From: a virus
DNA: 28,311 nt
IMG/VR virus record: IMGVR_UViG_3300047548_000472
Coordinates: 1-28,311 of that record
Reading direction: 5' to 3' (one strand)
Within the stretch, counting starts at the first letter, position 1. Every line of letters starts with the position of its first letter. The notes under the pieces were generated by a model. The model saw nothing but the letters and a program-made list of their open reading frames with translations, was not told the DNA's origin and searched no databases. The position numbers and the translations under genes were made by a program. This document shows, piece by piece, positions 9,861-24,545 of this stretch.

Positions 9861-9902
9861 ATGAAGAATCATACATGTACGCTAATGGTTAGTTCACCAT
9901 GA
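9861..9902 (+). CDS. 13-residue leader peptide coupled to the initiator gene
   Basis: An ATG at 9861 with a strong GGGAG five bases upstream opens a frame MKNHTCTLMVSSP ending in a TGA that overlaps the start of the next gene (ATGA at 9899-9902). The next gene has no Shine-Dalgarno sequence of its own. Ribosomes finishing this mini-ORF would therefore restart there. Together with the hairpin just upstream, this looks like a translational control device for the replication gene. Confidence 0.5.
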   Translation: MKNHTCTLMVSSP

Positions 9903-10672
9903 CGTATTTCCGCGTATCAGATTGTTTCTGGTCATCTCCGAAATCAATAACCCTTAGTGATTCTGCCGTAGCGTTATGGACTAGGGCCGGTTCCTATTGC
10001 GGCCAGCATTTAACGGATGGGTTTGTTTCGGCGCAAATTTTACCCATCCTTCAAGGCAATGAATCGACGGCGAATGAACTAGTCGCATCGGGTTTATGGG
10101 TCACGGTTGACGGCGGTTATTTGTTCCATGACTGGTCGGATTACAACCGTGATAGTGAGTCTGTGAAGCGTGAGCGTGAGGCGAATAGGGAACGTCAACG
10201 GGCGTGGGTTGCTCGCAAACGCGCTAGTGAATCTGTTAGTGATGATGTTATTTCGCGCGTGAATAACGATGTTACTAACGGCGTTAGTGACGGTGTTACT
10301 AACGACAGCGACGGGGTAGGAAAGGAAAGGAATGGAAAGGAACGGAAAGGAATAAATACTAAAAAGAATTGTGACGATTCTTTTAACGAGTTTTGGTCTG
10401 TGTATCCGCGTAGGGTTGGGAAGCAAGCCGCACAAAAAGCATTCCTTAAAGCGTTAACTTTCGCTGATGCTTCCGTTATTATTGATGGTGCGAGGCGGTA
10501 CGCGAACGATCCGAATAGGTCAGATGAGTTCACCGCTCATCCGACGACGTGGATTAATCAAGGACGGTGGGAAGATGATCCGTTACCTGCGCGGCGTGAT
10601 GATAGTAAGCAAGGGCAGAGGCGAGCCAATTTTGAGGCGTTCATAGGACAGGGGCAGATCAGTGCAGGCTAA
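9899..10672 (+). CDS. replisome organiser / replication initiation protein (DnaD/lambda-O-like layout)
   Basis: The 257-residue protein has an N-terminal winged-helix-like region (YFRVSDCFWSSPKSITL, AVALWTRAGSYCGQHLTDGFV, NELVASGLW, GGYLFHDWSDYN; residues about 3-83). A charged linker follows (about 88-158). The C-terminal domain (FNEFWSVYPRRVGKQAAQKAFLKAL ... HPTTWINQGRWEDDPLP, about 163-230) is typical of phage replication proteins that recruit the helicase. The linker is encoded by a 12-bp periodic repeat and a purine tract, a possible origin inside the gene. Translation seems coupled to the 13-codon leader. The next gene overlaps it by 11 bases. Confidence 0.8.
   Translation: MTYFRVSDCFWSSPKSITLSDSAVALWTRAGSYCGQHLTDGFVSAQILPILQGNESTANELVASGLWVTVDGGYLFHDWSDYNRDSESVKREREANRERQRAWVARKRASESVSDDVISRVNNDVTNGVSDGVTNDSDGVGKERNGKERKGINTKKNCDDSFNEFWSVYPRRVGKQAAQKAFLKALTFADASVIIDGARRYANDPNRSDEFTAHPTTWINQGRWEDDPLPARRDDSKQGQRRANFEAFIGQGQISAG
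10223..10306. repeat. 12-bp periodic iteron-like array inside the initiator gene
   Basis: Seven 12-base units run in phase from 10223: GCTAGTGAATCT, GTTAGTGATGAT, a diverged unit, GTGAATAACGAT, GTTACTAACGGC, GTTAGTGACGGT and GTTACTAACGAC. GTTAGTGA occurs at 10235 and 10283, and GTTACTAACG at 10271 and 10295. The latter is nearly the reverse complement of the former, so sites alternate in orientation. The protein shows the matching 4-residue repeat V-(S/T/N)-(D/N)-(D/G). Confidence 0.6.
10318..10352. repeat. purine tract with GGAAAGGAA-type repeats next to the iterons
   Basis: Thirty-five bases contain only two pyrimidines (10333, 10343) and repeat GGAAAGG four times at roughly 6-11 base intervals. 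An A-rich stretch follows, AATAAATACTAAAAAGAA at 10351-10368. The combination of iterons followed by a strand-asymmetric, AT-rich segment is the layout of an origin with a DNA unwinding element. Confidence 0.5.
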
Positions 10673-14632: not shown

Positions 14633-14928
14633 ATAACTGGCCCTGGACCACCAACGAAACCACCACCGAAACCGTTAACGAGAACGTTACCGAAAACGTG
14701 GTAGACGCAATACCTGACAAGCCACGACCACACGACCGGATGCGCGAACTAGACGCAAACCCCGAATACGTCAACAGCAAACAAGCAGCCGACATGATCG
14801 GAATAACACAAAACAACCTACGTCAGTTAGTGTTTAAAAAGAAACTAGCCGTAGCCGAAAAAGTAGGACGAAACACCTACTACCGCACAACCGACATTAA
14901 CGAAACCATTACCCAACGAAAAAAGTAA
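14626..14928 (+). CDS. HTH DNA-binding protein with acidic N-terminal tail
   Basis: GTG start at 14626 with AAAGGA eight bases before. Residues 1-45 are low-complexity (Thr, Glu, Asn, Val: ETTTETVNENVTENVV). Residues about 46-96 form an HTH_17-like domain (EYVNSKQAADMIGITQNNLRQLVFKKKLAVAEKVGRNTYYRTTDINE). The gene lies directly before the terminase genes and just ahead of a promoter-like -10 sequence, so it could regulate late transcription. A link to packaging initiation is an alternative. It resembles the HTH protein at 8345-8548 only in fold class. Confidence 0.65.
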   Translation: MVDNWPWTTNETTTETVNENVTENVVDAIPDKPRPHDRMRELDANPEYVNSKQAADMIGITQNNLRQLVFKKKLAVAEKVGRNTYYRTTDINETITQRKK

Positions 14929-21725: not shown

Positions 21726-22824
21726 TGTTTTCGCGCCCATCCTTAAAAAGGAACGCCAGTCGGACGGCACTCTACTTGTGACCGGCATTGCAACAGATGA
21801 CACTCTTGATATTGATGAACAGGTGTGTGATCCTGCGTGGCTTGAACAGGCTATGCCGGCGTGGTTTGAGTACGGCAACATTCGAGAGCAGCATTCTAAT
21901 ATTGCTGCCGGTGTTGCTATGAAACTGGAACAGGATGGTTCCCGCCATATTGTGACGGCGCGGGTTGTTGACCCGACATCTGTTATGAAGGTGGAATCGG
22001 GGACGCTTAAGGGTTTCAGTATTGGTATTCGTGATCCTCGCATTATTAGCGATAAGTCTGCTCCGGGTGGTCGGATTGTTGGCGGGGAGATTGTGGAAGT
22101 GTCGCTAGTTGACCGGCCTGCTAATCCGTCGTGTCTTATTGAACTAGCGAAGTCTGTTAATGGTGCGGTTCGTCAGGTTGAAACACTCATTGAGAAGGAA
22201 GGCACGCTAATGGAGCGGTGTTCTAAGTGCGGAAAGGCGTGCAAGACTGACGACCTGACCGACAAGATGTGTAAGGAATGTAAGGCGGTTGAGGCTTCCG
22301 AAATGTCGGAGGAGGAAGTTTCATCGGAGCAGTCGGTTGGTGATGAGACTACGGCTGAGGAGGAAGGCACCGCTATGGCCGTGGAGGAGGAATCTTCACA
22401 GCCTGTTGGTGAGGAGTCGTCACAGCCGGAAGGTGAGGAGTCGTCTCGTCCGGGTGGTGTTGCGGGTGTCGCCGGTAAGGAAGATGAGGAGTATGACGCT
22501 GAGGAACACATCTCCGAAGAAATGGGAATGCTTAATAGTCTCATGGAGGCGGTTGCGCGGATTGAGACAATACTGGCAGAATCGGGCAAGGCAGACACAG
22601 AGGCTACCGCTAAGAGCATCAAATCATTTGATGAGCGGCTGGCGAAGGTGGAGAAAACTGCCAGTCGTGGACCGGCTCGTACTAACGTGAAGTCTGCTGT
22701 TGTTCAGGTGGATGAGAAGGCTGCTCTTGCTGCCGCGTATCGCGCTAAGGCTGCGTCTACTAGTGATCATGCACTCGCCACGGGCTATCTGCTTATGGCC
22801 GATGAAATCGAAACTTCTAACTAA
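21709..22824 (+). CDS. prohead protease fused with scaffold domain
   Basis: The 371-residue protein joins an HK97-type prohead protease (residues about 1-145) to a scaffold. The protease has DTLDIDEQVCDPAWLEQA, Glu60-Gln-His62 (REQHS), Ser104 (LKGFSIG) and Glu129 (EIVEVSLVDRPANPS), the expected catalytic set. After residue 168 come a zinc-ribbon-like CSKCGKACKTDDLTDKMCKECK, a long Glu/Ser-rich linker with three 8-residue repeats, and coiled-coil segments ending in MADEIETSN. Cleavage of the scaffold and capsid delta domain during maturation is the known role. ATG 21709 or 21712 may be used; both sit close to GGAG. Confidence 0.85.
   Translation: MMQTASVFAPILKKERQSDGTLLVTGIATDDTLDIDEQVCDPAWLEQAMPAWFEYGNIREQHSNIAAGVAMKLEQDGSRHIVTARVVDPTSVMKVESGTLKGFSIGIRDPRIISDKSAPGGRIVGGEIVEVSLVDRPANPSCLIELAKSVNGAVRQVETLIEKEGTLMERCSKCGKACKTDDLTDKMCKECKAVEASEMSEEEVSSEQSVGDETTAEEEGTAMAVEEESSQPVGEESSQPEGEESSRPGGVAGVAGKEDEEYDAEEHISEEMGMLNSLMEAVARIETILAESGKADTEATAKSIKSFDERLAKVEKTASRGPARTNVKSAVVQVDEKAALAAAYRAKAASTSDHALATGYLLMADEIETSN
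22195..22202 (+). promoter_or_regulatory. strong internal Shine-Dalgarno AAGGAAGG for a nested scaffold
   Basis: This site lies inside the protease gene, seven bases before an in-frame ATG at 22210, exactly where the protease domain ends and the scaffold-like part begins. Confidence 0.55.
22210..22824 (+). CDS. nested scaffold protein (internal start of protease-scaffold gene)
   Basis: Translation from ATG 22210 would make 204 residues: MERCSKCGKACKTDDLTDKM, the acidic Ser/Glu linker, and the helical region EEHISEEMGMLNSLMEAVARIETIL followed by SIKSFDERLAKVEKT. Nested scaffolds in frame with the protease are known from lambda (C/Nu3) and others, where the free scaffold is made in excess. The strong internal Shine-Dalgarno at 22195-22202 and the domain boundary support this. 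The zinc-ribbon-like head on a scaffold is unusual. Confidence 0.5.
   Translation: MERCSKCGKACKTDDLTDKMCKECKAVEASEMSEEEVSSEQSVGDETTAEEEGTAMAVEEESSQPVGEESSQPEGEESSRPGGVAGVAGKEDEEYDAEEHISEEMGMLNSLMEAVARIETILAESGKADTEATAKSIKSFDERLAKVEKTASRGPARTNVKSAVVQVDEKAALAAAYRAKAASTSDHALATGYLLMADEIETSN
22387..22458 (+). repeat. three tandem 24-bp repeats in the scaffold linker
   Basis: Units begin at 22387, 22411 and 22435 and code for EESSQPVG, EESSQPEG and EESSRPGG (with the first Glu of each as GAG). The DNA copies differ at a few third positions. They lengthen the acidic linker and are a likely site of length variation among relatives. Confidence 0.75.
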
Positions 22825-22838
22825 AGGAAATTAAACTA

Positions 22839-24545
22839 ATGACTACTCTGCCTCCGGCAAGTGAGTTGTTCGGAACGGATGATCCGAAGGCTCTTGCCGC
22901 TATGAAGGACGGTTTTGATACCGCCGTTAATAAGTCTATTACTGCGGGTTACCGTGGTGATTTCACTCCTAACGTGAATATTCCCGGTGCTTCTCAGGGT
23001 CCGGGTGCTGCGCTTGCCGCACTTGAGAAGGCCGCTACTGATCCGGCTCTGGCTAAGGCGATTGGTGCGGATGCTCTCGCGTCACTGCAACAGCAGGTTG
23101 TTGCTTCCCGTGAAATCGTCAAGGACATCACTATTGGTGATGGTATTACTACGGGTTCGCCTATCGGTACGGGTCTTGTCCCGTTTGATCTGGAGGCACC
23201 TGCTAAGTATCTTGCTCCGCGTCCGACTCCGCTGCGTAACAAGTTGCCCCGTGAAAAGGGCATGGGCACTAGTCGTCGTTACAAGCGGATCACGGGTATC
23301 ACGGGTTCGGGTACTGGCGGGGTCGGCGTGTTCCATCCGGGTATTTCTGAGACGACTCAGAATAATTTTGCCCCGGTTGGTGCAAGCAACGCCCTGTACC
23401 TTAACCGTGGTGCGAAGATTTCGTACGCCGGTGACGATCAGATTGTTCCCTATTTCGAGTTCGGTGTGAGCGATTCGGTTTCGTTCGCCGCACAGTACGC
23501 GGGTCAAGGGTTCCAAGATGTGCGTGCATTGTCGGCACAGTCACTTCTGTACTCGTCCATGCTGCTGGAAGAGCGTATGCTCCTCATGGGCCGTGGCGCT
23601 AACACGTCGTACTTCTCCGGTGCGCTTGCTTCACCTACCGCTGTCACTGTCGCTAATGCGGCACCTGCCACGGGTGAGACTGCTATCTCCGGTGCGACTA
23701 CGACGATTTGGGTTAAGGTCACTGCGGATGCTGGCGATTTCGGTCAGTCCACTCCGTCGGCTATTGCTTCTGTTTCGGCTTCTGCCGGCACGGTTGCGGT
23801 TGTCACTGTGGGTGGCGCGGTGTCTGGCGCTCTTGGCTATCGCGTGTATGTGGGTACGGGTTCGGGCGCACCTGCGGATACTGCAATGTGGTACGCGGGT
23901 CGCACGGGTTCCAACGTGTTCCGTATCACGGGCGCTCTGCCCACGTCGGGTACTGCCGTGTCGGTTCCCGCTGCGGGTGATACTTCCGCTTTCACTTACG
24001 GTTACGACGGCATTATGCCTATCGTGACCGGATCCGATTCGGGTTACACGAAGGTACTTAACAGTTCCTTCAACGCGGTGTCTCCCGGTGTCGAATTCCA
24101 GAATGCTTTCGCTGCCCTGTACACGGCGGTTAAGGCTGACCCTGACGAGATTCTGTTTAACGGTACTGACCGTAAGAATCTTTCGGAGTTGTTGAAGAAT
24201 TCGTCTAGCACCAACTACCGTTTGACTCTCGCTCAGGATGAGGTTGGTAACGCTGTTATTGGTAGCGTTATTACCGCTATTCAGAATGAGGTTACGGGTA
24301 AGGTTGTTCCGATGACGGTTCATCCGTGGATGCCTCAGGGCAACACGGCGATTCTTTCCTACACTCTGCCCATTCCCGATTCGCAGGTTTCTAACGTGTG
24401 GTCGGTTGTGAATGTTCAGGACTACATGGGTATTAACTGGCCGGTTATTGACTTCCAGTACCAGATGTCGTCTTACTGGCAGGGAACGTTCGTTTCTTAC
24501 GCTCCGGCGTGGAACGGTTCCGTTACGGGTATCGCGCTTCCGTAA
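22839..24545 (+). CDS. major capsid protein, HK97 fold with inserted Ig/FN3-like domain
   Basis: AAAGGA lies 10 bases before the ATG. The 568-residue protein has an N-terminal helical delta-like part (about 1-110) likely cut by the protease, then capsid core regions (APAKYLAPRPTPLRNKLPREKGMG, YFEFGVSDSVSFAAQYAGQGFQDVRAL). About residues 264-382 form a Thr/Ala/Gly-rich beta domain (TTTIWVKVTADAGDFGQSTPSAIASVS, GALGYRVYVGTGSG, VFRITGALPTSGTAVSVP) that looks like an Ig or FN3 insertion, probably exposed on the capsid. The core resumes at YGYDGIMPIV and ends with VNVQDYMGINWPVIDFQYQMSSYWQGTFVSYAPAWNG. Gene order and size support the call. Confidence 0.9.
   Translation: MTTLPPASELFGTDDPKALAAMKDGFDTAVNKSITAGYRGDFTPNVNIPGASQGPGAALAALEKAATDPALAKAIGADALASLQQQVVASREIVKDITIGDGITTGSPIGTGLVPFDLEAPAKYLAPRPTPLRNKLPREKGMGTSRRYKRITGITGSGTGGVGVFHPGISETTQNNFAPVGASNALYLNRGAKISYAGDDQIVPYFEFGVSDSVSFAAQYAGQGFQDVRALSAQSLLYSSMLLEERMLLMGRGANTSYFSGALASPTAVTVANAAPATGETAISGATTTIWVKVTADAGDFGQSTPSAIASVSASAGTVAVVTVGGAVSGALGYRVYVGTGSGAPADTAMWYAGRTGSNVFRITGALPTSGTAVSVPAAGDTSAFTYGYDGIMPIVTGSDSGYTKVLNSSFNAVSPGVEFQNAFAALYTAVKADPDEILFNGTDRKNLSELLKNSSSTNYRLTLAQDEVGNAVIGSVITAIQNEVTGKVVPMTVHPWMPQGNTAILSYTLPIPDSQVSNVWSVVNVQDYMGINWPVIDFQYQMSSYWQGTFVSYAPAWNGSVTGIALP

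Follow-up and report, generated by a model that had tools for sequence, protein, structure and literature searches.

The window analyzed here comprises the whole IMG/VR record of 28,311 bp, which derives from an uncultured phage and is classed as linear. It encodes a WhiB regulator, a Rad52-type annealing protein, a PD-(D/E)XK exonuclease, RusA and SSB, and its terminase is less than 60% identical to that of every phage in the reference set. No near DNA match to the window was found among phages, and a single-protein query gave no useful close relatives in viral, genome or plasmid collections. The replication initiator of the window matches the profiles PHROG_2447 (E = 2.8e-38) and PHROG_9474 (E = 9.7e-34; phage replication initiation protein), with no O-like PHROG among its 15 matches. 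It reached the cut-off of no Pfam family, so iteron-plasmid Rep proteins (Rep_3 and similar) are not matched, and a comparison of its fold with the PDB produced zero matches at E ≤ 0.001.

In the AlphaFold2 model of the initiator, the N-terminal domain has a pLDDT of about 97, and its helices and strands follow one another in a winged-helix-like order. Next come a long helix reaching residue 121, a linker and a helical C-terminal domain. The linker shows pLDDT values below 50 at residues 124–128 and 134–154 (most of the segment 124–154), and it is in this predicted disordered linker that most of an array of iterons, a purine tract and a hairpin is encoded (Table 1).

Table 1. Position of the initiator gene and of the DNA elements within it (window coordinates)
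Feature	Position	Strand	Description
Replication initiator gene	9899–10672	+	257 aa; predicted winged-helix-like N-domain, disordered linker and helical C-domain
Degenerate 12-bp units at array start	10223–10257		one weak iteron at 10234–10244 (8/11)
Four iterons	10258–10304		11-bp palindrome CGTTA[G/C]TAACG every 12 bp
Purine tract	10318–10352	+	35 nt; 5-bp period (GGAAA/GGAAT/GGAAC), read as GKERNGKERKG
AT-rich stretch	10353–10392		75% A+T
Hairpin	10362–10384		AAAAGAAT-TGTGACG-ATTCTTTT; perfect 8-bp stem, 7-nt loop, within the AT-rich stretch

The good iterons start at positions 10258, 10270, 10282 and 10294 and agree with the shared motif at 9, 10, 10 and 10 of 11 positions, the motif having been built from 64 units in 20 loci with the window's own units included (a mild circularity). 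The repeats, whose 12-bp phase is in frame with the linker codons, form the only palindrome cluster of this kind in the window. The original prediction from this DNA described seven 12-base units in strict phase and in alternating orientation. The 12-bp phase is real, but only four units fit the shared motif, one more, at 10234, fitting weakly and the remainder being degenerate. The apparent alternation in orientation is better explained by a single near-perfect palindrome with G or C as the central base. The tract and the AT-rich stretch were described correctly, the tract containing exactly two pyrimidines. With a period-5 score of 22/25, it is the sole place in 28.3 kb that scores at least 18/25, and its sequence has no other match in the window within 3 mismatches (0.00 expected). 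The nearest DnaA-box-like site lies 9 kb away and the period of the tract is 5, hence it is no DnaA-trio element, which is a 3-nt repeat beside a DnaA box. The hairpin, missed in the original prediction, starts about 10 nt past the tract. DNA folding of positions 10355–10390 gave a z-score of −3.1, and an Rfam search returned no match. Cumulative GC skew, proposed as a check for a turning point at the array, was calculated and gives none that is usable in this 28-kb fragment, because skew tracks gene orientation in the window.

Two other repeats were observed in the window. At 14647–14699, a second 12-bp-period coding array (TTNETTTETVNENVTENV) lies in a small ORF, HTH/excisionase-like in type, that immediately precedes the terminase genes; its V-x-x-N layout is similar to that of the initiator array, whereas its DNA motif differs (GTTAACGAGAACGTTACCGAAAACG), and it is possibly a packaging or excision site. 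A 24-bp tandem repeat (22387–22459, 3 copies) encodes an EESSQP-rich stretch in an ORF located just upstream of a 568-aa ORF (22839–24545).

The contributions of DNA and protein sequence to these elements were compared using synonymous shuffles of the initiator gene that followed the codon usage of the phage itself (20,000 shuffles for the tract and iterons, 2,000 for the hairpin stem). In these regions, which were picked after inspection, the tract scored 22/25 against a mean of 12.9 (P = 0.0001), four iteron palindromes were present against 1.02 expected (P = 0.0006), and the hairpin stem gave P = 0.011. The 12-bp period by itself was not beyond what the protein sequence gives (P = 0.10). 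The original prediction had suggested that the 4-residue protein repeat could be a by-product of DNA-level selection. The peptides TRPDPTRPDP, GKERNGKERK and the like correspond to three-frame readings of 5-bp repeats.

Relatives were collected using an alignment query of eight N-terminal domains, which found 346 in viral contigs. The best 80 of these 346, together with reference actinophages, yielded 88 non-redundant initiator genes with related N-terminal domains. The iteron palindrome, the 5-bp tract and often the hairpin are found again in relatives with only about 24–62% protein identity, and synonymous shuffles that keep the codon usage of each phage do not reproduce the codons of these elements. 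Several classes of linker iterons were found, including CGTTACTAACG (the class of the window), GTCACGCGTGAC, GAACGTTCG, GATGGCAA and others. Among possible specificity residues, position 50 varies with iteron class: 15 of 20 GTTCG-class proteins carry Arg there and other proteins mostly a hydrophobic residue, a difference that could also come from shared ancestry.

The 5-bp tract is usually found 3' of the iterons, with units such as CCCGA, CCCGT, CCCAT and TCCAC. It scores at least 20/25 in 43 of the 88 related initiators and has a synonymous P value below 0.01 in 54 of them. Across the relatives' loci, 42 tracts of at least 20/25 are present in 29.8 kb of linker sequence versus 0 in 429 kb elsewhere, and among periods from 3 to 15, none but 5, 12 and multiples of 5 occurs often. 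In some tracts the spacing alternates between 5 and 6 bases, with the C-runs retained. The encoded peptides are wholly different between phages (TRPDP, GKERK, EEKRR, IPSHP), whereas the DNA period remains 5. Conservation of the repeats at the DNA level in relatives, named beforehand as a point on which the original prediction should stand or fall, was therefore found. Judged by codon comparison, the preservation of these elements shows selection on DNA, and the amino acids of the linker appear to be largely dictated by DNA signals. The iteron sequence changes while the plan of tract and hairpin persists, suggesting that the recognition and opening modules evolve separately.

Several loci depart from the common arrangement. 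Three of them (L025, L027 and L028), with N-terminal domains among the closest to that of the window, have a mirror layout in which an AT-rich/TCCAT tract is located ahead of GTGACTCACG iterons. Only a few loci (L028, L037 and L042) have DnaA boxes within the initiator gene, and such boxes were dropped as general partners of the array for this reason; in L028 and L037, perfect DnaA-box-like sites (TTATCCACA / TTGTCCACA) occur near the array, 321 and 469 nt into the gene, respectively. Across loci L025–L104, several unrelated C-terminal domains are fused to the same N-terminal domain with the iteron/tract/hairpin module at the junction, an arrangement in which the origin might serve as the joint where recombination swaps domains.

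A perfect stem of at least 8 bp directly 3' of the tract is present in 29 of 61 genes, compared with 2.4% in synonymous shuffles. In a separately fetched set, which has a few contigs in common with the first and is not fully independent of it, a post-tract hairpin was found in 22 of 59 (2.1% in shuffles). About half of the tract-bearing relatives have no strong hairpin. The stems compared for covariation were selected for pairing, so only the rates against synonymous shuffles count as a test. The stem sequences vary freely, and the loop is constrained, with mostly a C-G closing pair around TAAC, TGAC, TTAC, TAAA, TAC or TTC. In its full form, which about half of the tract-bearing relatives show, the hairpin has a stem of at least 8 bp, a closing C-G pair and a 3–4 nt loop beginning with T. 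On the opposite strand, most of the constrained loops read C-GNNA-G or C-GNA-G, loop types which may be unusually stable in DNA, although the papers searched gave no confirmation of this. The hairpin of the window, with its 8-bp stem, a closing pair other than C-G and a 7-nt loop instead of the usual 3–4 nt, appears to be the counterpart of the relatives' post-tract hairpin, but a looser member of the group.

The 5-bp tract was also found beyond this family of N-terminal domains. In scans based on DNA patterns only, (GGAAN)6 and CCCGACCCGACCCGACCCGACC, at least 75 of 103 and at least 54 of 94 ORFs, respectively, among the matches listed correspond to a replication-initiation PHROG. These matches include initiator families unlike that of the window, and the GGAAN-matching ORFs show another N-terminal consensus, M-RIRT-KPEF. 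A degenerate EEKRREEKRREE pattern gave 17 matches, for some of which length or resemblance to initiators is insufficient for a verdict; among the matches are (GAGAA)n tracts in several more genes resembling initiators, one of them in a locus with 33% GC. In the viral contigs L301, L308, L328 and L332, CCCGA tracts lie outside any sizeable ORF and some are followed by inverted repeats; these are possibly non-coding forms of the same module, or host repeats.

Based on these sequence comparisons, the segment 10234–10392 very probably represents the core of a phage replication origin embedded in the initiator gene, as the original prediction proposed for a candidate and as DNA-level conservation in the relatives supports. 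It is best read as a lambda-type intragenic origin, in a variant with the 5-bp tract and often a hairpin as a recurrent module. In such an origin, the N-terminal domain of the initiator would bind the palindromic 12-bp iterons, and the bound array would strain the adjoining DNA and, by analogy with lambda, cause the 5-bp tract and the AT-rich stretch to open. The initiator or replisome proteins might then hold one strand of the tract in 5-nt steps, which is the weakest step of this scheme. The C-terminal domain, together with a host or phage loader, would be expected from established initiator biology to bring in the helicase, and the hairpin past the tract, once exposed on opening, could provide a boundary, loading or priming signal.

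A quite different explanation is that the repeats are a feature of the protein: selection for spacing or for binding of a partner would have favored a flexible linker of low complexity, made of V-[ST]-[ND]-[GD] repeats and charged G-K-E-R repeats, and the DNA repetition would be a by-product of short duplications. The location of the array, in codon frame and within a predicted disordered linker, agrees with this, as do the low complexity common in initiator linkers and the lack of significance of the 12-bp period alone given the protein (P = 0.10). We nevertheless consider it very unlikely, since synonymous shuffles seldom regenerate the tract, iterons or hairpin, and completely different peptides across phages are combined with a DNA period constant at 5. 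Translation passes through the 5-bp repeat in each of the three frames, which indicates that the DNA determines the peptide and not vice versa. Slightly less probable still is an autoregulatory operator, or a partition/incompatibility site, formed by the iterons and bound by the initiator, with the true origin elsewhere. The array is positioned over 330 bp inside the gene, far from the promoter region, it is joined to a tract and an AT-rich stretch as in known intragenic origins, and no similar palindrome cluster exists in the rest of the window; moreover, the annotation of phage Tuc2009 places the origin in its rep gene, which has the same tract. The operator or partition role would be in line with the absence of a GC skew mark at the array and with the general knowledge that initiators often repress their own genes and that iteron arrays can serve control as well as initiation.

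The tract might also keep the origin open by acting as a G-quadruplex, or its C-rich partner might do so as an i-motif. CCCGA, CCCGT and CCCAT tracts produce perfect G3N2 repeats on the complement, and C-runs are retained in the tracts with alternating spacing, but the window tract is G2N3, capable of at most a weak two-tetrad structure, and a strict 5-bp period is not needed for a G-quadruplex. This makes it the least probable of the three alternatives for the window, and as a general explanation it is ruled out by the (GAGAA)n tracts of other initiators, which have no GG runs.

For the intragenic origin, a further proposal, to which we give slightly less than an even chance, is that the pentanucleotide tract, often with a covarying loop-constrained hairpin (C-TNNC-G or C-TAAA-G; other strand mostly C-GNNA-G), constitutes a previously undescribed origin-opening module. 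It would be common to phage initiators with unrelated DNA-binding domains, in phages of 33–72% GC, and would be a counterpart of DnaA-trios, selecting strand and direction for helicase loading. No earlier description of the tract/hairpin module was found in the open-access papers searched. Intragenic origins of the lambda type are well known, and to our knowledge most actinophages and metagenomic phages are without a mapped origin. The restriction of the period-5 tract to linkers is specific enough to place candidate origins from sequence alone, and tract-based origin calling could supply phage replicons for vectors. The puzzling TRPDP, GKERK and EEKRR linkers would be explained as DNA signals, which raises the question of what reads five nucleotides at a time.

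Among known systems, the origins of mycobacteriophage-type RepA proteins, placed in or beside repA with no repeats found (PMC7157519), were set aside as a match, the proteins being different and the repeats absent. The window shares three features with lambda-type origins: iterons inside the initiator coding region, their inverted-repeat structure and an adjoining AT-rich, strand-asymmetric region. Inverted-repeat iterons are likewise located mid-gene in the lambda origin in gene O, in P22 gene 18 and in Stx-phage origins, and in lambda and lambdoid origins the iterons are followed by a strand-asymmetric AT-rich stretch and accompanied by an inverted repeat (PMC7466680). In lambda, O binds the iterons; opening requires the AT-rich tract next to them, whereas binding of O does not (PMC7466680). 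The lambda-like placement pointed out in the original prediction holds as an analogy of layout. So does the difference it noted in period, lambda iterons being 18 bp long and spaced 20–24 bp, compared with 11 bp every 12 bp in the window. By sequence, the initiator of the window is outside the lambda O family, and its origin would be lambda-ori-like in working without O-family membership.

The 5-bp tract is absent from lambda O (14/25), P22 gp18 (16/25), 80alpha gp20 and TP901-1 rep, and is therefore not required of intragenic origins in general. The annotated origin of P22 ends in the hairpin CCCCC-TAAA-GGGGG. In Staphylococcus phage 80alpha, the putative origin annotated inside the initiator gene gp20 has repeats, a repetitive AT-rich stretch and a terminal hairpin (GTCGGG-CAA-CCCGAC). 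Unlike the window, its AT-rich stretch is made of TAA/AAT triplets with a 3-nt period and has no 5-bp repeat (13/25).

Closer parallels are provided by Gordonia phages BritBrat and Murp, Microbacterium phage Warren and Arthrobacter phage MrSmee, whose initiators have N-terminal domains 43–56% identical to that of the window over about 100 aa, as well as linker iterons and a 5-bp tract. Their iteron sequences and C-terminal domains vary, and the coding strand of their tracts is rich in C (CCCGA and similar), as in most actinophage relatives, whereas that of the window tract is rich in G. The rep gene (orf16) of Lactococcus phage Tuc2009, annotated in its record as 'contains origin of replication', has linker repeats followed by a GGATA-type tract (21/25) that is G-rich on the coding strand, as in the window. 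Its N-terminal domain (annotated as a DnaD-like helicase loader) and iterons are different, and no clear hairpin was seen 3' of its tract.

In Bacillus subtilis, a repeated motif on the strand opposite the DnaA-trios is read by DnaD in single-stranded form (PMC10201434). The DnaA-trios and the DnaD Recognition Element of oriC resemble the arrangement in the window in logic only, with a short repeat beside initiator boxes and one strand read after opening (PMC10201434); they consist of 3-nt or TnnT units in a chromosomal origin, compared with a 5-nt repeat in a coding region. By this analogy, the 5-nt tract could, speculatively, be the phage counterpart of the motif read by DnaD.
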